Assembly: GCA_017654935.2 (NCBI GenBank)
Contig: CM065697.1
Coordinates: 46,895,763-46,959,762 of the forward strand
Length of the DNA stretch: 64,000 nt
From: Phymorhynchus buccinoides
Taxonomy: Eukaryota; Mollusca; Gastropoda; Neogastropoda; Raphitomidae
Reading direction: 5' to 3'
Both the position numbers and the translations under genes were made by a program. Shown here one piece after another: positions 28,445-52,976 of the stretch (position 1 is the stretch's first letter; each line of letters begins with the position of its first letter). The notes beneath the pieces are model-generated. The model did not search any database. It was given only the letters and a program-made list of their open reading frames with translations, and was not told the origin of the DNA.

Positions 28445-28770
28445 GAAACACGCCTCACAAAATGCTGCAGGATGTGCGCTCCAAGACCAACCTCCCCTTC
28501 CCCCTCCCCATGCCCACCTACAGCCAGGCGGTCAGCGCGGCGCGGGCCTCAGGCAACGTGGTGGCTGAGCGCGCCACCATCATCCGCGAAACGGTCAAGT
28601 TTTTCCTGGGCCTCAAGTACTGGTGGAGCACTGAGGACTACGACCGCATTGCGCAGCTGGTGGTGGAACAGTTTCCTGAGCTGAGAGATTCGGCGACCGC
28701 GGATTCTACGCCTACTACTACGTCTGCTGCCACTTCTGCTGCTGCTGCTTGGGCAGCTGCTTCTGGTTTT
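28445..28770 (+). CDS. BTB-gene exon 3: module part A1
   Basis: Acceptor CTTTCTTTCTTCAG ends at 28444; the two first bases complete the phase-1 codon. The peptide begins GNTPHKMLQDVRSKT, then part A1 from about residue 15: NLPFPLPMPTYSQAV, IIRETVKFFLGLKYWWS, DYDRIAQLVVEQFPELRDS. A Thr/Ala-rich end follows, then donor GTGAGT at 28771 (phase 0). A1 aligns without gaps to A2, A3 and A4. It probably folds as helices around IIRET..F and DY.RI..LV. No family was recognised. Its partner part B1 is in the next exon. Confidence 0.82.
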
Positions 28771-28805
28771 GTGAGTGAAACTGAAAAGGATAGAAGGGGT
28801 TTGCA

Positions 28806-28856
28806 GACCTGTTTACCCATAAGATTTCACCATATTTTGTACACATTTCAAAATTC
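28806..28856. mobile_element. Left half of a CAGACCTGTTTACCC MITE
   Basis: CAGACCTGTTTACCCATA and GATTTCACCATATTTTGTAC match the left end of the element at 54805-54970. The matching right half resumes at about 29930, after a LINE insertion. Confidence 0.7.
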
Positions 28857-29350
28857 TGGGCAGTTCAAATCAATCGTCTCCAAAGAATACAAAACAATGC
28901 AGCCAGACTCGTCCTGAGGAAATCAAAAAGAACCCATGTCACACCCCTTCTGATCAAACTACACTGGCTGCCAATTCATGCTCGCATTGAGTACAAACTA
29001 GCAATCCTCGCTTTCCGCCATTTTCAAAACACTTTGCCAACATACCTGTCCAACCATCTCATCACCTATCAACCATCCCGCACTCTCCGTTCTAGCAGCG
29101 AGAAACTCCTCAAAGTCCCCCGCATGAAACTTAAGTCCTTTGGTCACCGCTCTTTCAGCTATCAAGTACCCACCATCTGGAATTCGCTCCCCTTCTACCT
29201 CCGGTCCGCTCTGTCCCTGTCTGCATTCAAGTCTGGCCTTAAGACTCATCTGTTCAAAAAGTTCCTTTCCCCTTCATAATTTCAATTTCAATCTCACACA
29301 CAAACCCCGTGTAAAGTGTGCCTCTGTGTGTGTGCGCGTGCGTGTGCGTG

Positions 29351-29395
<45 letters not shown>

Positions 29396-29441
29396 TCTTT
29401 CTCTCTGTCTCTCCCTCTCTCTTTCTCCATCTCTTTCTTTC

Positions 29442-29472
<31 letters not shown>

Positions 29473-29929
29473 TTTCATCCCCCCCCCCTCTGTCCCCCCC
29501 CCCCCCCCCCCCCCCCCCGTCTCTCCTTCGCTCTCTCTGCCTTTCTCGTAATATTGTTTTACATTCACATATTGTTTTGGGAATTTGTGAGCTCGTATGA
29601 CACCCCCCCCCCTCCCTCCCCGAGAATTTGTGAGTGCATAAATGGCGTGCGTGTTGAAAGGGTGAGGTGTGTGGGGGTCTGTTTGTCCATGCCTTGATTT
29701 TTTTTTAATTTTTTTTTTTTTTTTTTTTTAAATCCCCTTCTTTGAATTTGTGTCAATAATGTGTATGTGAAATACTACATCCGTGGGATGAACGGCGTGA
29801 GTTGGTTGTTGTTGTTGTGGTTTTTGGTTTTTTTCTTCCCCCTCTCGTAATATTGTAAAGCGCTCTGAGGATGATTTTTTATCATCGAAGAGCGCTATAG
29901 AAGCTTTATTTATTATTATTATTATATTT
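28857..29929 (+). mobile_element. LINE 3' end (Rex1/CR1-like) inserted in a MITE
   Basis: One frame, 28875-29279, encodes the last part of a reverse transcriptase ORF: RLQRIQNNAARLVLRKSKRT, then LHWLPIHARIEYKLAILAF, SRTLRSSSEKLL, FGHRSFSYQVPTIWNSLPF and LKTHLFKKF before TAA. This is the well-known C-terminus of Rex1/CR1-type elements. The untranslated part carries GT, TA, long poly-C (about 29443-29472, 29499-29518) and poly-T tracts. It ends with CGCTCTGAGGATGATTTTTT, AGAGCGCTATAGAAGC and an ATT-repeat tail. 5'-truncated, it lies in the intron after exon 3. Confidence 0.85.
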
Positions 29930-30035
29930 GAAAAAAATATGATAAATATGGTACATGGGGGAAAATATGATGAAATGGTGAAAAAAAAAATTCTGATTAT
30001 TGCCTGATTCGGGAAACGGGTGCGCTCTGTGTTGG
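29930..30035. mobile_element. Right half of the split CAGACCTGTTTACCC MITE
   Basis: AAATATGATAAATATGGTAC and GGGGGAAAATATGATGAAAT match 54850-54905; the element is interrupted by the LINE at 28857-29929. Confidence 0.65.
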
Positions 30036-30158
30036 GGTTGGACTTGAAAAACAAAGGGCTCTAAGTCTATCAAGTTGGTCATACCAGGCTTCTGGACTCT
30101 TCTTGATATTGACTGTTCACTGCCATAAGTGTTTTTCATGTGTTAAATGCATGGGTCA

Positions 30159-30316
30159 TACTATATTTTTCGGACTGTAATGTGCGCCTCGTAAAACGCA
30201 GCCCCCAAATTTGTGCAAAAAATTCTGTTTCTGTATCTTCTTACTACATTATTAGTCAATTTATAAGGCTCAGTATGGGAAAAAAAGTATCACCTTATTG
30301 CCCGAAAAATATGGTA
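30159..30316. mobile_element. TA(C)-TATTTTTCGG MITE, copy 1
   Basis: Ends TACTATATTTTTCGGACTGT and CCCGAAAAATATGGTA, inverted, with TA at both ends. Other copies start at 54621 and 63471. The TACCATATTTTTCGGA terminus is common to animal Tc1/mariner-type MITEs. Confidence 0.8.
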
Positions 30317-30469
30317 CTTGACTTGAGTCAATAAGTCCCCATCCAAAGGACTCGATGTTCAGTTCAATTGTTGTCTTTGAAGTGGAAAAAAAAAGGGCGA
30401 GGCTGGGAATGGGATTCAAACCCCAGTCACACACGTGTTGAATTAGCAAGCAAATGCATACAGTTTAAA

Positions 30470-30955
30470 AATAATAGTTCCATGAAGTGAGACACAAAAT
30501 GACAATACTTTTTGTTGTTGTTGTTGCTGTCCCGTCTGCCGAGTCGTACAATGGTGTTGCTCCCATGCCGCTCATTCCGAATTCCAATTCGCAGCTACAC
30601 CCCTGCTTGTTCAAGTCGCAGAATCCGAGACCAGCAGTCCAAGGGGAGCGAATCTTTGTTAGGCCGTCAGGAGGCAACCAACTGAGGAGACACTGCACTG
30701 CTGTTGAGTCACGTTGGTGGAGTTCAGCGGAGCCTGTTCAGGACACCATCTACTAAGCCCCCTACTGACGACACCATTCTCTTAGTCGCGGAGCCAGCGT
30801 GAGTGAGGTCCTCCTCCGAGGGCGCCACCACGACCATCCACCGACAGCTCCCCAGAACACACTGATCCCCATGACTTTGACCCGAACGCACCTTTACAGT
30901 TTTTAAAAAATAGTTCCATGAAGTGAGACACAAAATGGCAATACTTTGTTCACGT
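30470..30955. repeat. Insertion bordered by 45-bp direct repeats
   Basis: ATAGTTCCATGAAGTGAGAC followed by ACAAAATGRCAATACTTT occurs at about 30474-30515 and 30909-30950. The 390 bases between them contain the dispersed repeat also seen at 1440-1675. The long direct repeat suggests segmental duplication rather than a normal target duplication. It ends 8 bases before the acceptor of exon 4. Confidence 0.75.
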
Positions 30956-30962
30956 GTTTCAG

Positions 30963-31340
30963 AGCAAGGTGAGGATAGACCTCTCCATGTGCGCCCGCAA
31001 CATCCGCCGCATTGCCAAGAACCAGGAAAAACGGCGGGGCAGTGGGAGTGGAAGCCCCGCCCACACCCCCACCCCCACCCCCGCCCCTTCCTCCAACCCC
31101 ACCCCTACCCCGAAAGACATCTCCTCCACCCCCAGTCTTCAGAAAGACATCCCCGCTCCCCCGGTTTCCAAGAGCGGTAAAGGGGGCGGGGGGAAGGGTA
31201 AGCGGAAGAGCAGTAACGTTCCGTCGATTAGCGTTCCCACCATGGTGAGCCTGTCATCCGCGGCTCAGATGTTGCCCCACACCGCGCACACCTCCGCTGC
31301 CCTGTTGGGAGGGGGGTCATCGGCGCAGGATTCTAAAGAG
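30963..31340 (+). CDS. BTB-gene exon 4: module part B1 and basic linker
   Basis: Acceptor GTGTTTCAG ends at 30962. The frame starts SKVRIDLSMCARNIRRIAKN, which is part B1 with the V..DL and ARN.RR signature shared by all four copies. A Pro/Thr linker (PTPTPAPSSNPTPTPKD) and a basic patch GKGGGGKGKRKSS follow, then SIPVPTMVSL-like text. Donor is AAAGAG before GTAAGG at 31341. The exon is 126 codons, phase 0 at both ends, so it is a symmetric exon that could be duplicated or skipped without frame loss. Confidence 0.82.
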
Positions 31341-31416
31341 GTAAGGCTCTGCAATTGCATGGAAGAGATCGATTGCTTTTTAAAAAAAGAAAAAAGACAT
31401 TTAATATTTATTATTT

Positions 31417-31895
31417 AGGGCTCCCAATCGTCCCGCAAAACAAGGGACTCTCACTTACGCAGGCATCAGAATTGTCAGAGGATCAGAGGATTTCAGAAGA
31501 TTAAGAATTTCTGTCATAGGATTGGCTTCTCTTGTAAGAGGTTTTGCCTTTGTATTCAGTGTTATCCTTTGTGTTAAACAGCATTTGAAAGTGATTTCTC
31601 ACTATATGAAGCCTTTTCGGCGGTGTTCAGAACTCATTTCAGTGTTGTCCCTCTTCAGTCTAGGGCCTTGATGGCCCCTTTACCGCGGTTTTCAGAGGAT
31701 TGGACTTCAGAGTATTCTGATGCCTGCTTACGGCATAGAGGGTCCTAGATGCGGGATAGAGGGTCCCAGTGGCATTGCGAATGCTAAAAAGAATTTTTCT
31801 AGTGCATTCATGGAACCCCCTGCATATTCTTTTAGCGGGTCTTTTACAATTTTAGTACTTCATAGACCCCCAAATGGGGGTTCCTGGGAGCCCTG
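31417..31895. mobile_element. CAGGGCTCCCA MITE, copy 3, interrupted
   Basis: Begins TAGGGCTCCCAATCGTCCCG (first base changed) and ends TCCTGGGAGCCCTG. Its middle is interrupted by another inverted-repeat element at 31459-31727. Flanks show ATTAT-like words consistent with a 5-base duplication but not exact. Confidence 0.8.
31459..31727. mobile_element. GCAGGCATCAGAAT MITE nested in another MITE
   Basis: Terminal inverted repeats GCAGGCATCAGAAT and ATTCTGATGCCTGC, with the 4-base word TTAC directly on both sides (31455-31458, 31728-31731) as target duplication. 269 bases, non-coding. Confidence 0.85.
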
Positions 31896-32379
31896 ATTAT
31901 TGTTGCACTGTAAAGATTGTACACTCGCTATGTTATGGAATTGTATAGACATAAAAACAAACTTTAACCCCTTGACTGCCATGTGATGTATCACGTACTG
32001 ACTTGATGACTCCACTGATGACATCATCAGATGAAGAGGAATAACTGTTCTTTGGTTTTTGCTCTTAACACGGTCAAGAGAGTTATATCCCCAGACCATT
32101 TTGCCAGATTGGCTCTATCAGTTGTCTTTTTTATGTCATGATTTGTACAATTATTTTTTTCTTTTATTTTCTCTGGCGGTCAAGGGGTTAACTGGAGCGA
32201 AATATTTTGAGGGCCCCGGCCCTCTTATATCGATCGATACATGGGCCGAAGATACTGACGTATGGAATTGGTTGCGATTTTAAGAATAATTTGTTTGGTT
32301 GTCAAGTTTTTATGGGTGTGAGTGAAAATGTTTACAAACATGATCTTCAATGACTTTATAATTCAAGTTTCAAATGATT
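31896..32379. other. Intron 4, non-coding
   Basis: AT-rich sequence with TTAACCCCTTGACTGCCATG near 31966 and GGCGGTCAAGGGGTTAA near 32174-32190. These form another probable inverted-repeat element (about 31965-32190) related in style to the TTAA MITEs. No exon. Confidence 0.5.
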
Positions 32380-32625
32380 TTAACCCTTTCACCGCCAGCC
32401 ATTTTTCAGCGAAATATTTCCATTAAATTTACCTGGGTAGAGAACAAAATCTGTCTGTAATAATGGGTATTCTTCTGTGACACATTTAAAGTAAGGCTTA
32501 TCCTTACCTCCCAAAATTAAAAGAACAGGGTCTTTGGATAACAGACCCTGGTTTATTGCCTTTTGGTGACATGGGTGTTAAATCATTGTGGTGCAAAAAT
32601 GCGACGTTGGCGGTGAAAGGGTTAA
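32380..32625. mobile_element. TTAA-bounded MITE, full copy
   Basis: Bounded by TTAACCCTTTCACCGCC and GGCGGTGAAAGGGTTAA, with TTAA at 32380-32383 and 32622-32625. The body has TTTACCTGGGTAGAGAACAA and GTCTTTGGATAACAGACC. The TTAA target suggests mobilisation by a piggyBac-type or Kolobok-type transposase (inference). Confidence 0.85.
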
Positions 32626-33068
32626 TTATATTTATAACTTTGTGGAAAAAATGTTTTGTATTTTGGAAAACAAAATTTTTGTCAGGAAAACAAAAACTTT
32701 TACTTGACGGGCTGACCACTTTGTTTTGATCTTGGTCTAGTATCACAAAGCCCTTCAGGTTTTGATACACTTGGTTTAGTATATAAATAAAAAAGGATTG
32801 TAAAAAGCATAATACAAACTATAGACATAAACATTTGTTTATTTAATGTTTGAATAAAGTGAGCTATCTGGTCACCACCATATTGAATGAAGCAAATTCG
32901 AAGATGATGAGTACTTCAATTTAATGAAGTAAAAAAACGAAAATAGGACACACTGGAGACAGTCTAAGGGAAGCAACTACAAGGGGAAGGTCTCAGCAAG
33001 GAACAGCAAGTTATTTCCCTTTTATTGGGTTACACGGCAGTCAAAACCATAAAAATATGTCAGGGAAA

Positions 33069-34489
33069 AAACCTCTGACGTGACTCCAAAAGATGGGAAC
33101 AGTGTCGGAATGATGTCTCCGACATGACTCCATTGAGTTAACCCTCTGACGTGACTCCAAAAGGTGGGAACAGTGTTGGAATGACGTCTCCAACATGACT
33201 CCATTGAGTTAACCCTCTGATGTGACTCCAAAAGGTGGGAACAGTGTCGGAATGATGTCTCCAACATGACTCCATTGAGTTAACCCTCTGACGTGGCTCC
33301 AAAAGGTGGGAACAGTGTCGGAATGACGTCTCCGACATGACTCCATTGAGTTAACCCTCTGATGTGACTCCAAAAGGTGGGAACAGTGTCGGAATGACGT
33401 CTCCAACATGACTCCATTGAGTTAACCCTCTGACGTGGCTCCAAAAGGTGGGAACAGTGTCGGAATGACGTCTCCAACATGACTCCATTGAGTTAACCCT
33501 CTGACGTGGCTCCAAAAGATGGGAACAGTGTCGGAATGATGTCTCCGACATGACTCCATTGAGTTAACCCTCTGACGTGACTCCAAAAGATGGGAACAGT
33601 GTCGGAATGATGTCTCCGACATGACTCCATTGAGTTAACCCTCTGACGTGACTCCAAAAGATGGGAACAGTGTCGGAATGACGTCTCCGACATGACTCCA
33701 TTGAGTTAACCCTCTGACGTGGCTCCAAAAGGTGGGAACAGTGTCGGAATGACGTCTCCGACATGACTCCATTGAGTTAACCCTCTGACGTGGCTCCAAA
33801 AGGTGGGAACAGTGTCGGAATGACGTCTCCGACATGACTCCATTGAGTTAACCCTCTGACGTGACTCCAAAAGGTGGGAACAGTGTCGGAATGACGTCTC
33901 CGACATGACTCCATTGAGTTAACCCTCTGACGTGGCTCCAAAAGGTGGGAACAGTGTCGGAATGACGTCTCCAACATGACTCCATTGAGTTAACCCTCTG
34001 ACGTGGCTCCAAAAGGTGGGAACAGTGTCGGAATGACGTCTCCAACATGACTCCATTGAGTTAACCCTCTGACGTGGCTCCAAAAGATGGGAACAGTGTC
34101 GGAATGACGTCTCCGACATGACTCCATTGAGTTAACCCCCTGACGTGGCTCCAAAAGATGGGAACAGTGTCGGAATGACGTCTCCGACATGACTCCACTG
34201 AGTTAACCCTCTGACGTGGCTCCAAAAGGTGGGAACAGTGTCGGAATGACGTCTCCAACATGACTCCATTGAGTTAAACCTCTGACGTGGCTCCAAAAGA
34301 TGGGAACAGTGTCGGAATGACGTCTCCGACATGACTCCATTGAGTTAACCCTCTGACGTGGCTCCAAAAGATGGGAACAGTGTCGGAATGATGTCTCCGA
34401 CATGACTCCATTGAGTTAACCCTCTGACGTGACTCCAAAAGATGGGAACAGTGTCGGAATGATGTCTCCGACATGACTCCATTGAGTTA
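33069..34489. repeat. 71-bp minisatellite, 20 units
   Basis: Twenty head-to-tail units of 71 bases with very high identity. Each unit contains TGACGTGGCTCC or TGACGTGACTCC, AGGTGGGAACAGTGTCGGAA, TGACGTCTCC or TGATGTCTCC, and ATGACTCCATTGAGTTAACC. Variation is concentrated at a few sites (ggt/gat, acg/atg, cga/caa). Because 71 is not a multiple of 3, the 66-codon minus-strand open frames that step by 71 bases are a by-product, not genes. Located in the intron between exons 4 and 5. Confidence 0.97.
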
Positions 34490-35149
34490 CTACTTAAAGC
34501 AAATGAAAAGGCCTGCCAAACTGGAAAAAGCAGGCATGGTAATCTTCAAAGAAAAATGAATGGTTGGTTGGTTGGCTTACCCTGGCTAAAAGACTCCAGG
34601 GATCATCCCAACAGCGAGAAGCACTTGAACACTAAGGCACAAATACATCAGCTAGGCCTAGGGATGAGAACATTACGTGTGTGACCGTTTTTGATTACTC
34701 CGTCTTCGGGGGATTTTAGACTGATGATGTTATGCTGGGAGCTTGTCATGGCTTAAGACAATCCCCGCTTAACCATTCAGAGCATAACAACATTCTGATG
34801 TAGCCTTGGCGTTCTAGCTTATGTTAACTGGTCTGACACAGCCTCATGCCAAGGCATATAGAGAAAAATGAATGTAGAAAAACAAATGTCAGATAGGGTT
34901 TTAAGCTTGAAGATAAGCTTTTTTCACAGTTTTATACATTTGTCCTCGAGAGAAGTTGCCTCCTGATCACCATAAAGGGCTCTGTACCCTTTGAGACCAC
35001 ATTAAATAATGTCTCCTGAAAACACAAAATATTTTCCGAGAAAAATGCTTTTCCTCCATTACCATGCCTGAAAAAGTGAACACAGTTTAAGAATAAGGAA
35101 GAAAATGTTTTTACTACTAGAAGTAATAAGGGGGTGGGTGAGTTCTTTT
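34490..35149. other. Intron 4, dispersed repeats
   Basis: 34577-34840 matches 1689-1960 and 42609-42890 (ACCCTGGCTAAAAGACTCCA; GGGATGAGAACATTACGTGT; GACACAGCCTCATGCC). 34905-35040 is the inverse of 9650-9810. No exon seen. Confidence 0.6.
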
Positions 35150-35430
35150 AAGTAAATGTAACTCGGATGAGACGATAAACCGAGGTCCCGTGTGCCCATG
35201 CACTTAGCATATGTTAAACCCAGTGGCAACGAAAAAGTTGTCATTTGGTCAAAATTTACCCCCCCCCCCCCCCCCCCCAGTGACAAAATCGCATGCCAAA
35301 AAAAAATTAAAAAAAATTGGGTGGCGCGCCTCTGGCTGCGACACGCTCTCCAGGTGGGAGCAACCCGAATTTCACAGAGACGCCTCTGTGTCTATAAAGT
35401 ACCTAATACCTAATATAATACCTATACCTA
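35150..35430 (+). mobile_element. SINE-like repeat, plus orientation
   Basis: GATAAACCGAGGTCCCGTGT, CAGTGGCAACGAAAAAGTTG, a poly-C run (about 35260-35278), GGTGGCGCGCCTCTGGCTGC, CTCTCCAGGTGGGAGCAACC and a tail of CCTAATA repeats. It is the reverse complement of 19263-19560. Confidence 0.65.
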
Positions 35431-35743
35431 ATGTGAACTTAACAGTTAGTGCGTAAAGGTTCAATAAATCTGGACATAGCTGTAGTCCAGACACCCCCCT
35501 CATGTTTACGGCCCTCAATCTTAAAGTCTGGCTCTTTCAGCTTCATGGCAATAATCCTAGGTTGGTTCTTGCCCTATCCTTCCCTGGATAGAACGGCAGA
35601 ATGTTGCTTCTCAGTGAACATTTTCAACGTGGAAATTTGAAGGGGTGGATGTCTAAACTAAGCTACAGCTGTGCCTAAATCTGATAAAACGTAATTAAAA
35701 AATGAAAGAATTGGGTAATGATTTAAGAAAATGTTTGTTTCAG

Positions 35744-36378
35744 CTGGTGTCCAGCCTGCCCTACCTGCTGACCCCCACCTCCCCCATCACCACTGCCACC
35801 ACCACCACCCCAGCTCCCCCCTCCTCCTCCACCCCCACCATCATCCCCACCCCCTCCACCGTCCTCCCCCCAGTGGCCCACTTCCTGGGGCACCACCCCT
35901 CCACCACCCACCACCACCACCACCACCACCCCACCCCCCACCCCACCGGGGGCATCGCCTTCCCTTCCCTCCTCCCAGCCACCACCGCCAACGCCATCGC
36001 CAGCACACCGCACCAACAACCCTCCCCACCCACCCCCCGCTCTCCCCCCCGCCCCCTCCCCATCTGAAGCCCAGGGTGGCTGTGGAGACGTCGGAGGGGT
36101 ACCCGGGGGTCCCGCTGTCCTTGTCGGAAGCGTGGCGGCCCGACGCTCAGCTCCCGGACCCTTTGCCGGTCCCGCCGTACTCGGAGAAGGTAATGAAGGC
36201 GAAAAAGACAGGTGTGACCAAGTTTGACCGCCCGCTCATCATCCGCGAGACCGTTCTCTTCTATCTCTCTCTCAAGTACTGGTGGAGCTCGGTCGACTAC
36301 GACCGCATTTCGGACTTCGTGGTCGACTACTTCCCGGACTTGAAAGACCCCAATCTAAGCCCTAACATGCCGCCTAAC
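35744..36378 (+). CDS. BTB-gene exon 5: Pro/His-rich linker and module part A2 (frame break)
   Basis: Acceptor ATGTTTGTTTCAG ends at 35743. Phase 0 reading gives LVSSLPYLLTPTSPITTATT, a run of seven His and PTPHPTGGIAFPSLL, then stops at TGA 36065-36067. One base later, the other frame carries VAVETSEGYPGVPL and part A2: QLPDPLPVPPYSEKV, IIRETVLFYLSLKYWWS, DYDRISDFVVDYFPDLKDP, to donor CCTAAC before GTGAGT at 36379 (phase 0). Upstream and downstream frames are reconciled by one extra base within the C runs at 36033-36050. I treat it as one exon with a probable homopolymer error; a true frameshift allele cannot be excluded. Confidence 0.72.
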
Positions 36379-37791
36379 GTGAGTCCGCGCCCCTGTCCTC
36401 CCTGTTGTTCAGGGGGGGGGCGGGGTGTTGGCTGTTTCATGTTGTGGCTGTTGAATTCTTTATCGTGTTCATTGTTTATCGAAGTGTTTCTACCGCCCGG
36501 TTCCCTTTTGTTAGTTGTCGTTATTGTCAGTTCGGTTGTTTTTTTTGCATGATCAGGCTTCTTCGCGTTTCTTTTCTCTCTCTTCTATGTTTTGTTATAC
36601 ATTAATGGCGATTGTTGTTAGTTTGGATATTTCTTTCGTTCGTTATTTCTTTTTTTTTTTTTTGACAGCAGCTTCTGCAGGAGTTTTCAGGTTTGAGCGA
36701 TTGGGTGTTGTTGCTGTTTTTGGTCATTCTGTAGTCTGTGCAAATTTGATTGCTGAAGATTCTGGATTTTCTCTCCCGTGAAGACAGTACAGTTCTGTGG
36801 ATGTGTGCTGTTTTGAATATTTATTTTCCCATTTTGAACTAAGACATTGTACCAAGAACTTTGTTCTTTCTATATCTTGCTAATTGAAAGCGTGGGTATA
36901 TCTATTCTCTGGCTTTTACTTTGTGTTAAATTAATAATAATGGGGGAAATTTATATGGCGCTCATCCTACTAAGTAGGCTACATGGCGCTTTACACATAA
37001 TATTAAAAATAAGACTAGAGGGCTTATGTTTGCCCCGGAGCAAACATGGGACGATTCCCCTCCAACCTCCTTCACCCTGCCTTCCTGTGTTGTGGTACTT
37101 ATGGATGATTCTTTAACTGATTGTATGCTTTAACAGTCTTGGGCTATAACTTTAACTTTTGAATTTTGATGTTATAGAACCTGGCTTGCAAAGTGACAGC
37201 CCTTAATATTCCAACTTCTAAAAACAAAATGAATTTTTTTAAAATTTATGTCCAGATGTTTTTTGTCTTGAAAAGTGAAAAGATTTGCTGTTTTCAGTTT
37301 CCAGGCCATTGATTGTGACTGAAAGCCACAGATGCCACAGATGCTATCATTTTTGCCAATACATTTAAAACAAAAAAATATGAAGCTGTAAGTGTAACTA
37401 AAGTAATATGCTTACCCGACTATACCAATACTTAGTTGAACAAACAACACACTAATAAAAGAAACACTGTTGCCCCAAAATAGTTTTCTTCTCCTATCCC
37501 TTGGGGAAAAAATGTTGCCAAAGTAAAGTTTTCCCCCTTATTTCGTCGTCTGCTCAACCTCCCTTTTTATATCTCTGCATGTCTATTTGTTTGTGTGTTG
37601 AATTTATTTGAGTAGATTTTATAGGAAGGATTTGAAGTACTAGTACGGGTCTCTGCTCCATCTTGGAGTTCTATCATCATCTGTGTCAAAGCAGTGTATA
37701 GTATAGATATAAATGGAGAACAGAAACATAATCAAACGCCCATTTCAAAATATATTTCTATTTTGTGCATTCATTTGGTCCGGTCTAGTAT
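36379..37791. other. Intron 5, mostly unrecognised
   Basis: T-rich sequence with no coding signature. 36940-37080 (GGGGGAAATTTATATGGCGC, ACATGGCGCTTTACACATAA) looks like a dispersed-repeat 3' end. Nothing else supported. Confidence 0.45.
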
Positions 37792-38012
37792 CAGACCTGT
37801 TTACTCTACTCTTTACGAGTAGTATTCTACTTATTTTGGACCTCTACTACTCATCAAAATTGATGGTAATGCTCTTTAATTGTTGAATGCTACTCATTTG
37901 TAATGAACAGTGTTTGATAGTTTTAATGAACAGGACTGCACATTTCACACCAAAACTACTCATTTCAGCTATCAAAACTACTCAAGACTTGTGTTGGGGG
38001 TAACCAGGTCTG
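37792..38012. mobile_element. CAGACCTGTTTAC-ended MITE
   Basis: Ends CAGACCTGTTTACTCTACTC and GGGGGTAACCAGGTCTG. The interior (GAGTAGTATTCTACTTATTT; ATGCTCTTTAATTGTTGA; AAAACTACTCATTTCAGCTA) is also found at 52980-53376 beside exon 12. Shares termini with 54805 and 58474. Confidence 0.8.
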
Positions 38013-38054
38013 TAGTATTTATAATTGATTTTGGTAATTATGGATTGTAAAACG

Positions 38055-38325
38055 TTTAGTGCAGCATAATATGTTTGTATGTGAATATTTATATTCGAAA
38101 CAGCTGTCTTTGCATAAGGCACTGTCCCTCCCCCATTGGGAGAAAAAGTAAATCAGCACAAAAATACATAAAGTTAACGTTAACTGGTTTTGTTTCTGAG
38201 GTTCACAAATACAGACATTGGACACAGAAAAGTTTTATAAACTTTTTAGCTGTACCTTTTCATCTCATGTCAGTTTTAAGCTCATTTTCCTGATGAAGAG
38301 ATAATAAAAATCTCGAAAGCTTGAA
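38055..38325 (+). mobile_element. Possible Penelope-like element remnant with hammerhead-like words
   Basis: ATATTTATATTCGAAACAGC, then TGTC, and 220 bases later CCTGATGAAGAGATAATAAA then AATCTCGAAAGC, resemble the CUGAUGA-stem II-GAAA hammerhead core words that accompany Penelope-like elements. A short open frame (LAVPFHLMSVLSSFS, alternative frame PDEEIIKISKA) precedes the second. Neither motif has a complete consensus: the first lacks CUGAUGA and the second has an extra A before stem II. Low-confidence remnant. Confidence 0.3.
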
Positions 38326-38692
38326 AGCATTGGTGTTTTGTGGCTTTTTTGAAAATATTTATATTTGACAAAGTGTTAACTAGAAGTTTGAAAAGTATAA
38401 ATGAAATTGGCAAACTGTTTCTGAATTTTAAAAAAATGTTGATGTTTGAATATCGTTTGTCTACCTTCAATGGTAAATGGTCATTCCTAGGTTGTTGTGC
38501 TGTTTGGATAATAGATGCGTGTTATGTGTTGTTCTCTCTGTTGTAGTGTATTGTGTATGACGGATAGTTTTATCATTCTGTTATATCTTTTGATGATAAT
38601 CAGGTTTTGCAAAAGAGCGTAATGCACATTATGGTTCTCTCAAACAGACACACAAACACATAATATTTAAAATGCACATGCACCCTTTCATG

Positions 38693-38902
38693 CTTGTGAA
38701 CTCATTTGTACTCATATGCACACGCACACGCACTTACACACACACACACACACCACACAACCACATACCCCTTACCCATTCATACACATACATTTTTGGG
38801 GATTTTGTTTTTGATCTAAGATCACTGTAAGGTGGATTAGACGTTAAATTAAAGAACCAACGAACACCACACACAACACACGCACACGCACACACACACA
38901 CA

Positions 38903-38991
<89 letters not shown>

Positions 38992-38995
38992 CTGC
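38693..38995. repeat. (CA)n microsatellite region
   Basis: AC tracts at about 38732-38751 and 38878-38988 (about 110 bases), with a unique spacer. A poly-C run follows at 39114-39133. Confidence 0.93.
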
Positions 38996-39479
38996 AGCAG
39001 CCCCTTGTAGGCTGTGGAGTGTTGTGTCAACACACTTTGTTGCTGTCTCCTACTTTCCTAACATTTCAAACATTGATCAGGCCTCATTTTTGACTTATGC
39101 AGGTTAACTTGTCTCCCCCCCCCCCCCCCCCCCACACACACAGCTGCAGCAGCTTCCTGTAGGCTATGTAACTGTAGTTAGGTGTGATGGTTAGATTTAG
39201 GGTTAGGCTTATTCTTTTTACCCTTAATTAAAATTTGTTTTTGCTGTGCATTTGACCAATGTAAATATGTTCTTTTTTCCTTGCATTTTTACCCTTAGTT
39301 ACTGCGTTTTGATCCTTCCATTCATTCAAGTTTGGAAGGCAGCTTTAACCTTGTAATAACTTATTTTTCACAGCAGACATACAATGGAGTCAATGAAGTA
39401 AAAAAGACTTCTCTTCATGACATTACTAACATATATTCTTGGTGTTACAATAAAGAGGAGCCAAGTTAGAGATTGATTA

Positions 39480-39690
39480 AAACAAGGACTGCCTAATTTG
39501 TTAGCTAGGCACTAATCCACAGACTGGGCTGCCTGTTTTACAAATTATAGGCTGCCTAGTCTGTAGATTAGGCACGTCTGAGAAGTTAACTTACAAGTTA
39601 GGCAGTCCTACTCCTAGTGCCTAATTCACAAACTAGGCAAAGTGGCTGCTTAATCTACATACTAGGCAATTCTGTGAGTTAGGCATGACA
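39480..39690. repeat. Cluster of short TGCCTA/TAGGCA hairpins
   Basis: At least five near-palindromes of about 22 bases occur within 210 bases, e.g. CTGCCTAATTTGTTAGCTAG then GCA, CTGCCTAGTCTGTAGATTAG then GCA, and GTGCCTAATTCACAAACTAG then GCA. They are not perfect tandem repeats, since spacing varies. Function unknown. Confidence 0.7.
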
Positions 39691-39794
39691 TATATATGTA
39701 AAATTTTTAGAAATACAGGTTCATTCAGGTAAGTTTTAAAGACCCAAAAATGGAATGGCATGAATCATTGTAATTGATCTATTCGATACACATT

Positions 39795-40333
39795 TTAAAG
39801 GGGCACCCTGATGGATGAGTTTTTGTAAGAACTTCGTCGAGATCACCAGGAAAACACCCTTTACAGAGATTGCAACACTCACTTTGCTCTGGTTTCCTAG
39901 AAACCGTCAAATCAGTGATTCCTCCTTGGCGGAGGTGTTGGAAGTCAAATTCTTTCACCCAAAGAGAAGGCGTGTGCCGTCTCTTTTGTAATGGCCACCA
40001 AATCGTTTGCATGAAATTTTCGCAATACAAGCATTTTTATTTTTATTTTTTCAAATTTTATACAGTTTAGCTAAAGGAGTTTCGCTCACAACAAAGGAAA
40101 TAGCTCCTTTTTTTAATTTACTGCACTACAAAAAAAGAAAACGTTTCAACCACAATGAGTGACCTTCACTGGCTACTCTCTCCGGCATCTCCGCCAAGGA
40201 GGAATCGCCGTTTTGACGGTTTAATTTCTAGGAAACCAGAGCAAAGTGAGTGTTCCGATCCTTGAAAAGGCTGTCTTTCTGGTGATCTCGAAGTGTTCCT
40301 TGCAAAAACTCATCCGTCAGGATCCACCTTTAA
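39795..40333. mobile_element. TTAA-bounded long inverted-repeat element
   Basis: Arms of about 140 bases: the left starts TTAAAGGGGCACCCTGATGG and the right ends CCTGACGG-complement then CCACCTTTAA. Paired words include GAGATCACCAGG, ACTCACTTTGCTCTGGTTTC and GATTCCTCCTTGGCGG. TTAA at 39795-39798 and 40330-40333. 539 bases, no coding. A lone end of the same family is at 295-332. It ends 64 bases before exon 6. Confidence 0.85.
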
Positions 40334-40396
40334 GCATAGCACGACGAGACAGTTTTCACTATTTACAATCTTGTGCCGGCTGTGTCTCCCTTCCAG

Positions 40397-40753
40397 CGAC
40401 GCGTGCGCACTGACCTCTCCCAGACGGCGCGCAACATCCGGCGTCGCGAGGTGATGCTGAAGCGGCGCGACGTCACCGACGTCGGAGGCGGGAGCTCCCC
40501 AGAAGCCCGGTTCACCGCCGTGGGCACTGTGTCCCTCCCCCCCCAGCTACCCCCCGCCGCCTCCCCCAGCGACCTCAACGATCTGCTGACGGCGGCCAGC
40601 ATCATCGAGAGCCGCACCGCCGCCTTGCACCACAGCGATTTGGCCAAAGCCTTGGAGAACCACCAGCATTCGGCTTTGTCGCAACAGCAGCAGCGGGATT
40701 CTGACGCCCTGGCTATGGCGTATGTCGGGAGAGAAACCGAAGAGAGCGATAAG
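40397..40753 (+). CDS. BTB-gene exon 6: module part B2 and linker
   Basis: Acceptor TGTCTCCCTTCCAG ends at 40396. The frame opens RRVRTDLSQTARNIRRREVM, part B2 (V..DL, ARN.RR), followed by a linker with LNDLLTAASIIESRTAALHH, QQQQRDSDALAMAYVG and an acidic end ETEESDK. Donor is GATAAG before GTGAGT at 40754. 119 codons, phase 0 to 0. The 3' end of the exon, its donor and some intron are duplicated just downstream (40815-40960). Confidence 0.82.
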
Positions 40754-40814
40754 GTGAGTGGGTGGGTGGGTGAGGATGGAAGAGGTTGGGGTATGAATGG
40801 TGAGTTATGAGTAT

Positions 40815-41215
40815 TGGAGAACCACCAGCATTCAGCTTTGTCGCAGCAGCAGCAGCTGCAGCGGGATTCTGACGCCCTGGCTATGGCCTACGTCGGGAGA
40901 GAAACCGAAGAGAGCGATAAGGTGGGTGGGTGAGGATGGAAGAGGTAGGGGCATGAATGGTGAGTCAGGGCTCCCAATCGTCCCCAAAACAAGGGGTCCC
41001 AGGGACTCCTTCACTTACAGTATAGAGGGTCCTAGAGAAGGGATAGAGGGTCCCAGTGGCATTGCGGATGCTAAATAAAATTTTTCTGGTGCATCCCTGG
41101 GACCCCCTGCACATTCTTTTACAGGGTCCATTAGAATTTTAGTACTTCATAGACCCCCAAATGGGGGTCCCTGGGAGCCCGGGAGCCCTGTGAGTTATGA
41201 ATATTGTGTGTGTGT
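40815..41215 (+). pseudogene. Tandem duplicate of exon 6 3' end and donor
   Basis: From TTGGAGAACCACCAGCATTC through GAGAGCGATAAG, then GTGGGTGG, this repeats 40660-40760 with few changes and two extra codons (a longer CAG/CTG run), followed by the same intron text (GAGGATGGAAGAGGT). Its donor GTGGGT is intact, but no acceptor precedes it, so it can be used only by reading through the intervening intron piece. A MITE (40966-41190) splits the copied intron part. Confidence 0.82.
40966..41190. mobile_element. CAGGGCTCCCA MITE, copy 4, with empty site next door
   Basis: Starts CAGGGCTCCCAATCGTCCCC and ends CGGGAGCCCTG. TGAGT lies at 40961-40965 and again at 41191-41195. The undisturbed sequence AATGGTGAGTTATGAGTATT at about 40796-40815, in the sister copy of the tandem duplication, is the empty site, which proves a 5-base target duplication. 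Confidence 0.92.
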
Positions 41216-41385
41216 GTGTGTATGCTCAATGCTGTGTGGTATTGTGTGGATGTATGTTGTCTAGTTCTTATGTTGGTTTTATTTCTTCTTGAGTTTTATG
41301 GTTTGTTTTTGTTTATGCGGTGGAAACCACTTTTCCGTGTACTTTTGTATATTATGGATTCCCCGTGGGGATACGGGGGGGGGGG

Positions 41386-41655
41386 TCTTTTTTGTAAAAA
41401 ATAGTTCTGTGCTTGTAACTTCCTCTAATCTGTCACTCTCTTTACCTTTTCCCTTTGCTTTCTATCACCTACTATCTTTCTGACTTATTGGCCCATTCTC
41501 CTGCCTTTAAAATTTTAAAAATAATTTTTCTCCTTTGAGCTCCTCCGAAATCGGAATGTGTCGGCTGTACGCAGCGGGGAGACCAGTAAAAACTTAAAGC
41601 CGGACACATTATGGCCATATGGCCTGGGAACGCAGAAGAAGAAGAAGAAGTATGA
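41386..41655. repeat. Dispersed repeat upstream of exon 7
   Basis: GTTCTGTGCTTGTAACTTCC, CCCATTCTCCTGCCTTTAAA, CTCCTCCGAAATCGGAATGT and a GAAGAAGAAG tail. It matches 3245-3400 in part and 51340-51660 in inverse orientation. Phrase ATGGCCATATGGCCTGGGAA also occurs at 52240 and near 51900. Confidence 0.7.
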
Positions 41656-41691
41656 TGGACAGTAAACAGTTCAAATGTCTTGTGTGTTAAG

Positions 41692-42347
41692 GCGGGGCTG
41701 AACAACCGAAGCAAGGAGAAGTACCAGTTCAGCATCTACGGCGGGGGGGAGGGTCTGTCGGCGAACGCGGTCAACACCCACCTGGCCGTCATCAAGCAGG
41801 AGGTGGGGGAGGGTGTGGGTGTGGGGGAGGAGTCGGGGATGGGGGTGGGTGTGAACGAGGATGGGGCGGACCAGTTCCAGCACCAGGTGGCGCTGGAGGC
41901 GGCGGCGTCCCAGCAGGCCTGGCTCCAGGCCCAGGCCCTGGCCCTCTCCTCCCTCACCGACCACCTCACCTTCACCCCCACCTCCACCTCCACTTCCCCC
42001 CCCCTCCCCTCACCACCTCCCCTCCCCCCTCCGGCCTCTCCTCCTCCACCACCCCCACCTACAGCAACACCCCCGGCGGAGACTCCGCGGACACGTCGTC
42101 GGCGGTGGACCGCATGTCGGCCATGGCTATGTGGCGCTCCACCTGCCTCCCGGACCCCCTCCCCGTGCCCCCCTACTCCCTGAACGTGGTGCGGGCCAGG
42201 GACTCGGGGAACACGGCCTCTGCGCGGCCCAGGATCATCAGGGAGACCACCCAGTACTTCCTGGCCCTCAAGATGTGGTGGACCACCCAGGACTACGAGA
42301 GGATCGCTGAGATGGTGCTCAGGGAGTTCCCACAGCTCAAAACTGTG
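41692..42347 (+). CDS. BTB-gene exon 7: linker and module part A3 (frame break)
   Basis: The acceptor is an AAG type (TGTCTTGTGTGTTAAG, ending 41691), weaker than the others. The frame gives AGLNNRSKEKYQFSIYGGG, an IKQE SUMO-type motif within HLAVIKQEVGEG, and QVALEAAASQQAWLQAQALA. Just after SLTDHLTFTPTSTSTS a C9 run at 41996-42004 shifts the frame by one base. The other frame then reads LTTSPPPSGLSSS and part A3: CLPDPLPVPPYSLNV, IIRETTQYFLALKMWWT, DYERIAEMVLREFPQLKTV. Donor GTCAGT at 42348 (phase 0). One more C restores continuity; probably a homopolymer undercall. Confidence 0.72.
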
Positions 42348-42399
42348 GTCAGTATGCATGGGTGTTTTTTTCGCTTTGTTGTTGTTGTCTTACCCTGGC

Positions 42400-42608
42400 T
42401 TAACCCTTTCACTGCCAACATCGCATTTTTGCACCACAATGATTTTGCACCACCCATGTCATTAAAACCCTTGAAACCAGGGTCTGTTATTCAATGATAT
42501 TGTGTTCCTAAATATGGGCAGTAAGGATTGACCCTATTCTAAATGTGTCACAGAGAAATCCCACAATGAAATGTTTGGCTCAACGATGGCTGGCGGTGAA
42601 AAGGTTAA
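42400..42608. mobile_element. TTAA-bounded MITE, inserted in another repeat
   Basis: TTAACCCTTTCACTGCC to GGCGGTGAAAAGGTTAA. It splits the dispersed repeat that reads ACCCTGGCT-AAAGACTCCA at 34577 and 1689, here ACCCTGGC on the left and AGACTCCAGG on the right. Confidence 0.85.
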
Positions 42609-43017
42609 AGACTCCAGGGATCATCCCAACAGCTGAAGCACTTGAACACTATGGACTACTGGTACAAATGCAACAGCTAGGGATGAGAACATTACGTGTG
42701 TGACCGTTTTTGATTACCCAGCCACGTGGGCAGCCACACTCCGACTTTGGAGGATTTTTAGAATGATGATGTTATACTAGGAGCTTGCCATAGCTTTAGA
42801 CAATCCCCGCATAACTATGCAGAGCATAACAGCATTTTGATGTAGCCTTGGTGTTCTGGCTTATGTCAACTGGTCTGACACAGCCTCATGCCTAGGTGGA
42901 TTTTGCCTTGCATTTAGGCTTTGATGTGTGTGCAGCTCTCCCCAAAGCTAACTCAACATGGCTTATGTGATTAATTTACATGATCGTAGATTGGAATGAC
43001 TGATACTTTGGACAGTA

Positions 43018-43557
43018 CAGTGGAATCTGCTTAATCGGCCACTTTTGGGACCAGGAAAAATATGGCTGATAAAGCGAATCGGCCCATAAAACGAACATCG
43101 AGATACTGTATGACGCAATTATGCAAGTCAAAAGCAATGACGTCAAAATTAAATGTTGCAGTTCAAATTCAAATTCTTTCCCTTTTTGTGATGTGTGTGT
43201 TTATTAATCCTACAACTTGACAAAAGCACGAGTAAAAGACAATGATTTTGTTTTCTTGAGTGATTTTAACGCCATGCAGGGTCTTTCAATTGACAATGGC
43301 TCACCTTCCAACTTCACACTCAACCATGTAAGCGTCAAAAGCGTGTTGTCAGTTTGTCTGCCTCTGTTGTTCTCCCTCTCAAAAAGGGGTAAAGAGAGAA
43401 AAAGTGGCCAATAAAGCGAAATTGAAGATTTCAGCTTTGGCCGTAAAAACGAACAAAATAACACATGCTTAAGAAGAAAAAATTCCGTTCTAGAGGAAAT
43501 TGGCCGATTAAGCAGCTTTGGCCGATTATCCGATGGCCAATTAAACGGAGTCCACTG
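43018..43557. mobile_element. CAGTGGAA element (pogo/Tc1-like), 540 bp
   Basis: Ends CAGTGGAATCTGCTTAATCG and GGAGTCCACTG, both next to TA (43016-43017, 43558-43559). Internal arms repeat GGCCGAT/ATCGGCC and AAAGCGAA words. No transposase frame seen. Longer relative of 26297 and 53057. Confidence 0.78.
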
Positions 43558-43681
43558 TACTATGTTTTACACACTATAACTTTGTTAAAGGATATACTTT
43601 TTTTCAGCTGGCTGAGATCCTTGTGCCTTTAAATACGACTGATAATTTTTCAACCCCTTGATTGCCATATAGCAAGTTTCT

Positions 43682-43930
43682 TTAACCCTTTCATCGCCAC
43701 TGTCAGCCTCTTGGCACCATAATGATTTAACACCCATGTCACTGAAAGGCTTCAAATTAAGGTCTGTTACCCGATGACCTTATGTTCTTCATTTTGGGAG
43801 TAAAGGATAGGCCCTATTTGATGCATGTCACAAAGGAATCCCCAATATTGCAGACAAATTATTTTTTTTCTACCCAGGTAAGTTTGATGGAAAGTTTTGG
43901 CTGAAAAATGGCTGGCGTTGAAAGGGTTAA
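43682..43930. mobile_element. TTAA-bounded MITE, further copy
   Basis: TTAACCCTTTCATCGCC to GCGTTGAAAGGGTTAA; the interior is the reverse complement of the 32380 copy (CTACCCAGGTAAGTTTGATG; TTCAAATTAAGGTCTGTTAC). Confidence 0.83.
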
Positions 43931-43974
43931 TCAAGCGAAATACAATAACTTGTGTGTGTGGTCAAATTGGCCGC

Positions 43975-44163
43975 TAACCATAGTCAGTTAAAAAACCTCC
44001 TCGTTAAAGACCCCAAGATTCAACAATTGAAATGTGTATATGATGAACACATCTAAAAGCGTCCTAGTCATGCACATCATGAAAAAGAATACAAATAATC
44101 AGAAAGGACACATTAAGAGGCCGCAAGGCCTAGTTGTCCTCATTCTCTGACCTGACCTGACCT
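43975..44163 (+). mobile_element. LINE 3' end directly upstream of exon 8
   Basis: Text from AACCATAGTCAGTTAAAAAA to GACACATTAAGAGGCCGCAA and a CTGACCTGACCTGACCTG tail matches the last 190 bases of the LINE at 4242-7102 (AACCATTTCAAAAACCTCCT; AGGGCACATCAAGAGGCCGC; the same tail). The tail ends 9 bases before the first base of exon 8. Confidence 0.85.
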
Positions 44164-44172
44164 GTGTTTCAG

Positions 44173-45546
44173 CAAAATGTCAAGAAGGACCTGGGGACGT
44201 GTGCGCGCAACATGCGGCGGCGGCTGCCCATCAACAAGAACAAGCAGCAGTGGAGCAGCTACCAGCAGCAGTCCCCCACCTCGCAACCCACCGTCAAGGA
44301 CAGCGAAGGGCTGGGGGTGGAGGGCAGTGGGGGTGGGGTGACGCTGGGAGAGCTAGCCACTATGGCCAGTTTACGTGAAGCTCAGGACAAAGGGAGGGGG
44401 GAGGGGGTCTTGTCTGTTGCTGACGACCCCCGCCATTCTCTGCTTGCACAGTCGGTGTACGAACAAAACGCCTGGAATCTGTTCTACCAGCAGCAGTTCT
44501 CTACCCCTGACCCCGCCGCTACGACTCTGCCTTCTTCCCGCGGCGCCAAGCGAAGTTTGTCGGACGCGGCGAGCGCGAAAAGTTACGACGCGGGAGAGAA
44601 AGAGCTGCATGAGGCTTTGAAACAGGCGGTGGCTCAGTCGGTGAAACATCTAGGAGAGGCCGAGGCTGTGTCACGCAGACATACCATCGATGTGGCGAGC
44701 GCCGAAAGCGCCACGAACAAACTGCGCGAACTGAAACAAGAGCTGGCCATGTCCGGAAAGGATGCTGCGAAGTCGACGGAAGGCAGCAAGAGTGACAACT
44801 ACCCCGTGATGAAGGAGCTCATGTCTCACCCGGCTTTATCCGTCAGGGAGCCGCCACCGCCCTCGGTTCTCCGAGAACCCCCCAAGCTGCCCGCGGAACC
44901 CCCCGCTACTGCCGCCTTCCTCCCCACGTGGACAGGGATGGCTGATGGGAGCGCGGTGGTAGGAGGGGGAGCTTATCAGCACCACCTCACCCCAGCCCGC
45001 GCCCACTCCCAGCCCGCCTGCCCGCTCCGAACCGACGTGAGCCTCACCGAATCGGAAGAGGCTCCCATGAACTTGACCTACGCCCCTCCCCCTCCCACTC
45101 CCCCTCCCCCCTCAACCAGCAGCGAAGCAGGAGGAATAATAACCAAACGCGGAAAATCCCTCAAAGGCGTGAAATCGGAATCGAAAAAGAAAAGTTTGGC
45201 TGGAGGAGGAGAAGGAGGAGGGGAAGCAGGAGAGAAAGATGGGTTCAGCTCTAGGGAGCAGGTGTGGCTCCCGCACGGCTCTCCCTGGAAGAAAAGCGGG
45301 CAGACCATGTTCAAGGCTCTGCCCACCCCTCTCCCTGTGCCCAAGTACCCGCAGAAGCTGGTCAAGGCGCGGGAGGAGGGGCTGGCGTACAGACACCGGT
45401 CGGAGATCATCCGGGAGACGGCGCGCTTCTTCCTGGCCTTCAAGTACTGGTGGTCCAGCGCCGACTACAGCCGCATCTCGGAGCTGGTGGTCCTCGAGTT
45501 CCCCGATTTGAAGGACACGGTGACGCCGCCGGGACAGCCCTGCTAT
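44173..45546 (+). CDS. BTB-gene exon 8: module part B3, long linker and part A4
   Basis: Acceptor TGTGTTTCAG ends at 44172. The single open frame starts QNVKKDLGTCARNMRRRLPI, part B3. A 300-plus residue linker follows with alpha-helical text (ALKQAVAQSVKHLGEAEAVS, ATNKLRELKQELAMSGKDAA), a Pro-rich segment, VKSE (SUMO-type) and SKKKS basic patch. It ends with part A4: ALPTPLPVPKYPQKL, IIRETARFFLAFKYWWS, DYSRISELVVLEFPDLKDT, and donor TGCTAT before GTGAGT at 45547. 458 codons, phase 0 to 0. Unlike other modules, B and the next A share one exon, so an intron was lost here or gained elsewhere. Confidence 0.87.
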
Positions 45547-46635
45547 GTGAGTGTGAACACTGGTTTATGTGCATGGGTGCAACTATGTCCGTTTTACGCA
45601 GATTTCAGTTCTTTACATTTTCCCAGAAACAGGAATTCTGTTTATGAGGCTCTGCCCTTGGACCCCTGCCTTTCATTTTTTGTTTCTCCATTTTCAGAAG
45701 TTGCACCCATGTGTGTGTGTGTGTTCTGCATCACAATGTGTATCTGCATGGGTGCTACTCTTTCAGTTTTATACTGATTTCAGTATTTTTAATTTTACCA
45801 GAAACTGAACTTTTAAATTATTCATTAAAAATAAAAAATAAATAATTGACCACAAGCAATTTGGGGCGTTTTGAACTTGGTTGTTCTCTCTTGGAAGTTT
45901 ACAAAGGCAATATAATAACTTTACAAGACTTATCATCGCACTCAAACTGTCTCTATCATTTTAACTGTCTGTCTCGTCATCTCTCTCTCTAATGTTGCCC
46001 CCCCCTCCCCCCCCCGAATCGTATAACAGGGTTCTGCCCCTGTACCCTGCTGGGGACATGGGTCCCTGGATCCCTGTCTTTCATTTTTTTCATTTTGGTG
46101 AGTTGCACCCATGTATCTGTGAGTGTGAGGCCTTGTGCGCGTTAGATCCGCGATCTGCAAGTTCTGTACGGAAACCGCATACACTTGATAAATAAGTAGA
46201 TCTATGGGATTATGGATGGGTTTTCCACATGTAATGGGCACATTCTTTCATATTTCTTACTTCCAGATTAAAAAAAATGAAGTTTTTTGCGGATTCAGCA
46301 TGGGTTTCCGTGCAGAACTTGTGCATATATCTGTTCCTGTTTTTAGCTCTTGGTTTGTGAAATGGGTATTTCCGTGTGTGTGAATGTATGCAGTTGTGTG
46401 CGTGCGTGTTGTTTGATTTTGTTGTGACGACCTTTTGTGTATGTTCCTGTTTAAGACATAGTCTTCCTGTCAAGTATCAGTGTTACTTTGTGCATGTCAC
46501 AGGAATGATGGCGTGCATATTGTGCGCAAATGTATGTCTGCGCGTGCATGCTCGCATGCTGTGTGTGCATGTCTTTATTACTGTATATATGTTTGTTTTA
46601 ATCAACTCCTCAAAACAATCAATACTGTTACACAG
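45547..46635. other. Intron 8, non-coding
   Basis: Text shared between 45560-45800 and 46030-46130 (ATGGGTGCAACT, GGACCCCTGCCTTTCATTTT against TGGATCCCTGTCTTTCATTT) shows old internal duplication. A short poly-C tract lies near 45999-46013. No exon seen. Confidence 0.5.
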
Positions 46636-47535
46636 AGACGCGTTCAGAGGGACCTGTCCATGTGCGCCAGGAACCTGCGTCGAAAGAACACGCGGCAGCA
46701 GCACGGTTCATCAGGGGACGCGTCGGACTCAACAACGGGAACGCCCGCTCCCAAGAAAGTAAAGAGCAGCAGCGGAGGAGGAGGAGGAAACAAGGAGAAG
46801 AAGAGCAAGAAAGCTGCAGCAGCCGCAGCAGCTGCAATCAAGGTTGAAGCTGCAGCCGAACACTTGTTGCAAAGTGGTGTGGATTTGGGGAGTGGGGAGG
46901 GAGGTTCGGGGATGCTGGGTACATCTTTAGCCCCCTCCTCCTCATCCAGCGCTTCTCTGGTTCAAGCTATGCTGCAGGGCTCGATGGATCAACACGTGGG
47001 TTCTATCCCCCCCATCTCTTCTCTGTCCGCTCGCTCCACCCTCCCGACACCCTCCGCCCTGCCACTGCCTTCAACCCCGCAGTGGGTCGCCCCGCCACAC
47101 AGCAGCGCCACCATCCTGTCTCACCTCGTCTCCCCGATGGCTTCGACCACCACCACCACTACCATCACTACCACGGCTACCATGACGCTGCCCCACACCA
47201 CTTACCCCGCGGCTTACAGCTCGACTACCAGCGTTAACCCCCCGCCTTACTCCGCTCACTCGGTGGCTAATTCCGTGTCGGTGGTGGTGACGGCCCCTGG
47301 CAGCAGCAACACGCTGGTCAGAGATGGCGCCGGCGGTGTGATGGACCGCTCTCTGTGGCCGTTGGTTGTTCCGGCCAACGGTCAGAGCGAAGTTCCAACG
47401 ACGACGACGATGACTACGACGGGGAAAGCTAAGAAGAAGTCGGCTGGGCCTAAGTCGGAGGCCAGGTCCGGTGGTAGCAAGTCGGGTCAAGCCGGGGTCA
47501 AGTCGACCACTAGCATCAAACCTAAAGTGAAACAG
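46636..47535 (+). CDS. BTB-gene exon 9: module part B4 and nuclear-type linker
   Basis: Acceptor ATACTGTTACACAG ends at 46635. The frame opens RRVQRDLSMCARNLRRKNTR, part B4. Then come KKVKSSSGGGGGNKEKKSKK (basic, nuclear-signal-like), eight Ala, IKVE (SUMO consensus) and AAAEHLLQSGVDLGSG. A Ser/Thr/Pro-rich stretch with TTTTTTITTTATMTL and a second basic patch GKAKKKSAGPKSEARSGGSK follow, ending KPKVKQ before GTAAGT at 47536. 300 codons, phase 0 to 0. This is the last module; no fifth part A is seen before the BTB exons. Confidence 0.85.
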
Positions 47536-47866: not shown

Positions 47867-48104
47867 GCGACTCCTTCCACAACGCTCCCAACCAGCAACG
47901 AAGCTGTGATTGTACCCCAGGGAGGGGGGAAGGGGAAGGGGAAGGGGGAAGGAGGTGGAAAGAGAAGCAAGGAGGCAGCAGGACGTCAGTTGAACTCTCC
48001 GCGGGTGGGGGAGGGGCGTGGGCAGGCCGACACCACCACCACGGCCGTTGTGACGCCCACGCTGAGCGAGTCGTCGCACCACACTGCAGGGGCGCCTAAC
48101 TCAG
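47867..48104 (+). CDS. BTB-gene exon 10: Gly/Lys-rich linker
   Basis: Acceptor TTGTCGTCAAACAG ends at 47866; the frame reads ATPSTTLPTSNEAVIVPQGG, then GKGKGKGEGGGKRSKEAAGR and TTTTAVVTPTLSESSHH, ending AACTCAG before GTGAGT at 48105. 79 codons plus one base (phase 1), which fits the two-base start of the next exon. Low-complexity linker without a domain. Confidence 0.75.
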
Positions 48105-52832: not shown

Positions 52833-52976
52833 GCCCACAAGCTGGTGTTGCTGGCAGCCAGCCCCTACCTGCAGAGCACGTTCCGCCAGGCCAACCCCAC
52901 ATCTCACCTGGAGGTCAACCTGCCGCGGCACACCGGGGTGGAGGCCGCCAGGCACTTCCTCAAGTACCTCTACCAG
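52833..52976 (+). CDS. BTB-gene exon 12: core of BTB/POZ domain
   Basis: Acceptor CCTTGTCCCCCCAG ends at 52832. Frame: AHKLVLLAASPYLQSTFRQA, then NPTSHLEVNLPRHTGVEAAR and HFLKYLYQ. H-K-x-V-L-x-A-x-S-x-Y and the later F-L-x-Y-L-Y are the hallmark BTB core and helix. Donor TACCAG before GTACAC at 52977, phase 0. 48 codons. A 19-base piece of this exon (52845-52863) recurs in the minisatellite at 55932-56170. Confidence 0.9.

Follow-up and report, generated by a model that had tools for sequence, protein, structure and literature searches.

What kind of protein arises when four tandem copies of an unrecognised two-part module, A-B, stand in front of a BTB domain and a finger-less tail? This question was raised by a preliminary description of a 64,000-nucleotide stretch (hereafter the window; G000:C18:46895763-46959762) in the 2.12-Gb genome of Phymorhynchus buccinoides. 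Our analysis inclines slightly towards a gastropod BTB transcription regulator in which the four A-B modules replace C2H2 fingers. The gene model comprises 13 exons on the + strand, from 23319 to 60986, with AG/GT borders and matching phases at the joins, each exon junction having been picked by the analyst:

23319-24171, + strand: likely start-codon exon, Ser/Thr/Ala-rich N-terminus, phase 1 end (GT donor after 24171, in-frame join to the A1 exon; presumed ATG)
28445-28770, + strand: A1 exon, part A at 28492-28689 (AG/GT borders, genome match)
30963-31340, + strand: B1 exon, basic B segment at 30963-31031 (motif pattern, splice borders, phase)
35744-36378, + strand: A2 exon, part A at 36151-36348 (borders, genome match; frame change upstream of part A)
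40397-40753, + strand: B2 exon, B segment at 40397-40465 (motif pattern, splice borders, phase)
41692-42347, + strand: A3 exon, part A at 42147-42344 (genome match, frame; frame change near the C9 run at 41996)
44173-45546, + strand: B3 and A4 exon, B3 at 44173-44241, part A of A4 at 45319-45516 (single 1374-nt open frame, AG/GT borders)
46636-47535, + strand: B4 exon, B segment at 46636-46704, low-complexity linker after it (motif pattern, splice borders, phase)
47867-48104, + strand: linker exon, phase 1 end (AG/GT borders, frame)
49991-50127, + strand: BTB exon 1 (borders, frame, PF00651 match)
52833-52976, + strand: BTB exon 2 (borders, frame, PF00651 match)
55476-55697, + strand: BTB exon 3, end of the BTB, then a Gly/Ser/His tail (borders, frame, PF00651 match)
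59193-60986, + strand: last exon, finger-less acidic/Gln-rich tail and stop codon (borders, frame)

The start at 28445 given by the preliminary description is the exact A1 splice acceptor, and the 3' tail of this exon is longer than its counterparts in two relatives described below, from Batillaria (P0001) and Babylonia (P0002). In the A2 and A3 exons the frame changes, by an equal size, within a C-rich stretch upstream of part A (C7 at 36044 and C9 at 41996, respectively), while part A itself is an open frame in both. Read in the other frame, the upstream half of the A2 exon matches P0001 and P0002, and the linkers corresponding to both C-rich stretches are open in these two proteins. For A2, an in-frame acceptor before 36070 would bypass the frame change; a comparable acceptor was looked for in A3 and none was found. 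These frame changes may be assembly errors, true variants or unrecognised splicing.

A 61-bp minisatellite (52543-52847) reaches into BTB exon 2, whose splice acceptor has tandem intronic copies, since the acceptor-like string CCCAGGCCCACAAGC occurs five times within 52590-52828. Through a 168-bp tandem duplication (40652-40965), the 3' end of the B2 exon is present twice, splice donor included, and the intron between B1 and A2 holds 20 copies of a 71-bp repeat (33072-34489, 97% matches), the - strand of which is open in many registers.

Motif positions and shuffle-tested alignments confirm four A and four B segments in tandem on the + strand. IIRET lies at 28579, 36238, 42234 and 45406 and ARN[ILM]RR at 30993, 40427, 44203 and 46666, and neither pattern has a match on the - strand of the window. 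The ungapped alignment claimed for part A holds over 66 residues, with 27 invariant columns and 35-39 of 66 identical residues across the six pairs (z 14.5-15.5, each pair tested with 20,000 shuffles). Part B, aligned over 23 residues, has 8 invariant columns and 9-12 identical residues (z 5.1-6.8 against shuffles), and its terminal helices carry a conserved net charge of +5 to +7. As described, each part A is paired with a part B in the next exon, with B3 and A4 located in a single exon. The four A|B introns all have phase 0 and lie two residues ahead of V..DL, so the duplication unit consists of A exon, intron and B exon. When A4 was searched against the whole genome in six frames, scoring the best candidates only, all four matches at E <= 0.001 were the window's own part A copies. 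A chance repeat was rejected by the shuffle z-scores and by relatives with the same modules; a retroelement or pseudogene was rejected as well, as frames, splice sites and orthologues hold.

Downstream of the modules, the BTB domain (PF00651) matches with 68.2 bits (cut-off 20.5; E 8.5e-19), split over three exons, and residues are present ahead of its core in the predicted protein, on the side where ZBTB factors have the N-terminal extension used in BTB homodimerisation. Judged by its nearest PDB chains (Miz-1 fusions, ZBTB9, gigaxonin and NAC1), the snail BTB groups with transcription-factor BTBs. No Pfam family matches the tail at E <= 0.01, and it is indeed finger-less, the C2H2 pattern being absent from all 16 proteins examined, the window's included. 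An alignment of nine proteins contains the short conserved segments VAHFLG, FCNELL.AASIIES, VWFPHG and APMNL, the last of which may resemble a CtBP-binding motif. Weak Pfam matches to DEC-1_N (E 0.00045, 19.8 bits, below the cut-off of 29.2; in a low-complexity stretch of the B1 exon frame), Ctr (E 0.05) and M_domain (E 2) were found in window pieces, none of them over an A-B module.

Three protein searches returned 12, 7 and 5 relatives, amounting to 15 different proteins, 12 of which have a precomputed PF00651 match. Thirteen bear species names, from 10 species: Batillaria and Babylonia among the Caenogastropoda, Bulinus, Bradybaena, Candidula and Plakobranchus among the Heterobranchia, and further Aplysia, two Elysia and Lymnaea, which are gastropods as well. 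The three models from Bulinus, and likewise the two from Elysia marginata, seem to stem from a single locus predicted more than once or in pieces. P0001 carries all four modules, so that the four-fold array before a finger-less BTB protein, proposed as a check in other molluscs, is present in Batillaria; P0002 carries modules 1, 3 and 4 along with a module 2 from which most of part A is missing. Module 1 is absent from all eight heterobranch-like models reaching upstream of module 2 (P0003-P0008, P0013, P0014). Four of the nine heterobranch-like models covering module 3 (P0006-P0009) have no A part of that module yet contain B3, a pattern resembling a skipped A3 exon. Two relatives, P0008 (2123 aa, 6939-nt contig) and P0011 (1349 aa, 4191-nt contig), can be read as transcripts because they are uninterrupted frames on short contigs. 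The same uninterrupted frame suggests that P0008, lacking the A part of module 3, represents a real isoform. An origin of the exons in separate genes is disfavoured, as the parts occur within a single protein in P0001 and others, and P0008 and P0011 run without interruption.

Among non-gastropod animals, no relative was found at the thresholds used (40, 8000 and 1211 candidates; exact shared 5-residue words, set length ranges), and viral relatives were rejected, none of 15 IMG/VR pattern matches being confirmed by tblastn. The architecture is already in databases as unnamed gastropod gene predictions. Among the matches listed, no title on BTB domain proteins in gastropods concerns this protein, and the papers listed for Aplysia or LOC101850267 do not name that locus.

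The 27 module sequences placed in a tree sort by module position, all four positions being set apart from the rest by a branch of their own (support: M4 89/95, M2 91/87, M3 100/99, M1 97/96), and these groups recur in 92 (M4), 91 (M2), 99 (M3) and 98% (M1) of 200 bootstrap trees; long branches between the groups are flagged and the tree gives no order of duplications. As modules group by position across species, modules 2-4 are older than the split of caenogastropods and heterobranchs. Module 1 was either gained in one lineage or lost in the other.

Does the module belong to a known family? The window's modules match no Pfam family at E <= 10, and of 20 relatives' modules 18 likewise match none, while the other two hit one weak family apiece (best E 0.15). 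NCBIfam gave no match at E <= 1. The best PDB match by single sequence is a methyl transferase (E 1.1), and by profile only two chains matched, both of FOXO3 (E 0.81 and 0.93). Within the reach of these searches (Pfam, NCBIfam, PDB), module family and array are unnamed, in line with the preliminary description. Of the two outcomes that it named as refuting, a strong profile match to a named domain and transcripts placing the exons in separate genes, neither came up.

Confident structure models of the modules are helical, without strands: a proline-rich strap (LP.PLP.P.Y) and a short helix precede three helices, about 95 residues in all. The modelled three-helix core weakly resembles homeodomains (weak Z), with HOT1/HMBOX1 as best single match, and helical chains that do not bind DNA are also among the structural matches. 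Helices 2 and 3 are separated by a long loop in homeodomains of the HNF1/HOT1 class, as they are in the module 4 model. According to passages of PMC5575656, homeodomain helix 3 conserves Trp48, Phe49, Asn51 and Arg53. The Asn and Arg of ARN.RR are in apparent register with 51 and 53 in all four placeable rows, assuming an ungapped last helix, but the Trp48 and Phe49 positions are substituted. Further differences are the proline-rich strap, the extra N-terminal helix and the lack of a homeodomain match (PF00046) among those listed at E <= 10 for 20 modules, a scan in which most weak matches are lost to the HMMER filters. Whether the fold as such is homeodomain-like is an even call. The module is probably a DNA-binding unit of somewhat homeodomain-like shape; with this resemblance it counts as an unnamed family and not as a structure without parallel, and the preliminary interpretation is partly supported.

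How might such a regulator work? Each A-B module would fold as one helical domain, with A giving the first two core helices and B, from the next exon, the third, basic one bearing ARN.RR. This helix would enter the DNA major groove, its invariant Asn and Arg acting like homeodomain Asn51 and Arg53; that DNA is bound through the B helix seems to us fairly likely. The BTB would dimerise the protein, pair two arrays and recruit corepressors or cofactors, and a dimer would present eight modules reading long or clustered DNA sites. Dimerisation of transcription-factor-type BTBs is described in passages of PMC11426971. A bolder version, which we put forward tentatively and consider doubtful, is a new transcription-factor family that arose within gastropods: a module derived from the homeodomain, its helix-turn-helix stretched, would have been copied as a pair of exons until four stood in a row, and joined to a BTB, with eight recognition helices per dimer reading long composite or clustered sites and possibly module-3-dropping isoforms.

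The ZBTB (BTB-C2H2) factors, e.g. Miz-1/ZBTB17, share the BTB class, but lacking C2H2 patterns the snail proteins would pass the DNA role to the A-B modules, and in them the BTB follows the array. Drosophila Pipsqueak carries four tandem Psq motifs and on the best reading is alike in joining a BTB to helix-turn-helix modules; the snail modules, however, have no Psq match (PF05225) in the Pfam scan, a relaxed FxLRWN (TTK-type) pattern is absent from 16 of 16 proteins, and the part order is reversed. BTB factors mostly use zinc fingers, and in arthropods also HTH/Psq or FLYWCH domains, as stated in parts of PMC11426971. BTBs with non-finger DNA-binding modules are hence already known as a kind (Pipsqueak, NAC1). 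The gastropod protein, in which a BTB is conserved alongside three to four copies of an unnamed helical module, would add another solution, independent of these. Proteins that are listed as uncharacterised in Aplysia and other gastropods would gain a name and a role open to testing, and the multiplication and divergence of a DNA-binding module spread over two exons could be studied in them.

Alternatively, the module could be a diverged BEN domain and the protein a gastropod counterpart of BTB-BEN (NAC1) or multi-BEN BEND3, its C-terminal helix reading DNA. Such proteins likewise combine a BTB with a non-finger helical DNA-binding domain or carry tandem domains, and the pairing of BTB and BEN is known from NAC1. 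BEN domains are all-helical and about 100 residues long, their C-terminal helix enters the major groove (passages of PMC10206803), the order of parts is that of the module, and snail BEN domains end in an LR helix comparable to that of the module. We nevertheless regard this as unlikely, as Pfam lists BEN (PF10523) for none of the 20 modules at E <= 10, although the same genome elsewhere yields four BEN matches above the Pfam cut-off; the module profile reached a probability of only 0.2% against three BEN sequences of this genome, both profiles being shallow, and no chain with the five-helix BEN fold is among the structural matches listed. It is similarly improbable that the modules are protein-binding helical domains of a BTB scaffold not touching DNA: invariant surface residues of part A (LP.PLP.P.Y, K.WW, DY.RI) without a known DNA role and the structural ties to non-DNA-binding chains would fit, but the strong positive charge conserved in all four B segments and the homeodomain-like matches speak against it. 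A distant relationship to an unnamed region in SAMD3-like animal proteins, suggested by the preliminary description for a layout in which a basic helix comes after one with Y..I..LV..FP.L, has slimmer prospects still. A relative of forkhead or another winged-helix domain is hardly credible: the FOXO3 matches cover the segment holding the forkhead recognition helix, but their E values are near 1, strandless models already weaken a winged-helix reading, and Pfam gives no forkhead match.

Upstream of the A1 exon, a short open frame at 27380-27547, without Pfam match at E <= 0.01, begins MPNHRGLTREKILHLLDLEEP, which may resemble the N-terminus of piggyBac-like transposases. A LINE-like element occupies 4221-6962, with a reverse transcriptase (E 3.3e-27) and an endonuclease domain (E 3.2e-11) within 4221-6233. 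Elsewhere in the genome, the BEN-domain genes L005 and L006 lie on different chromosome-sized contigs (G000:C2 and G000:C29) and are 99% identical over the 115 residues compared.
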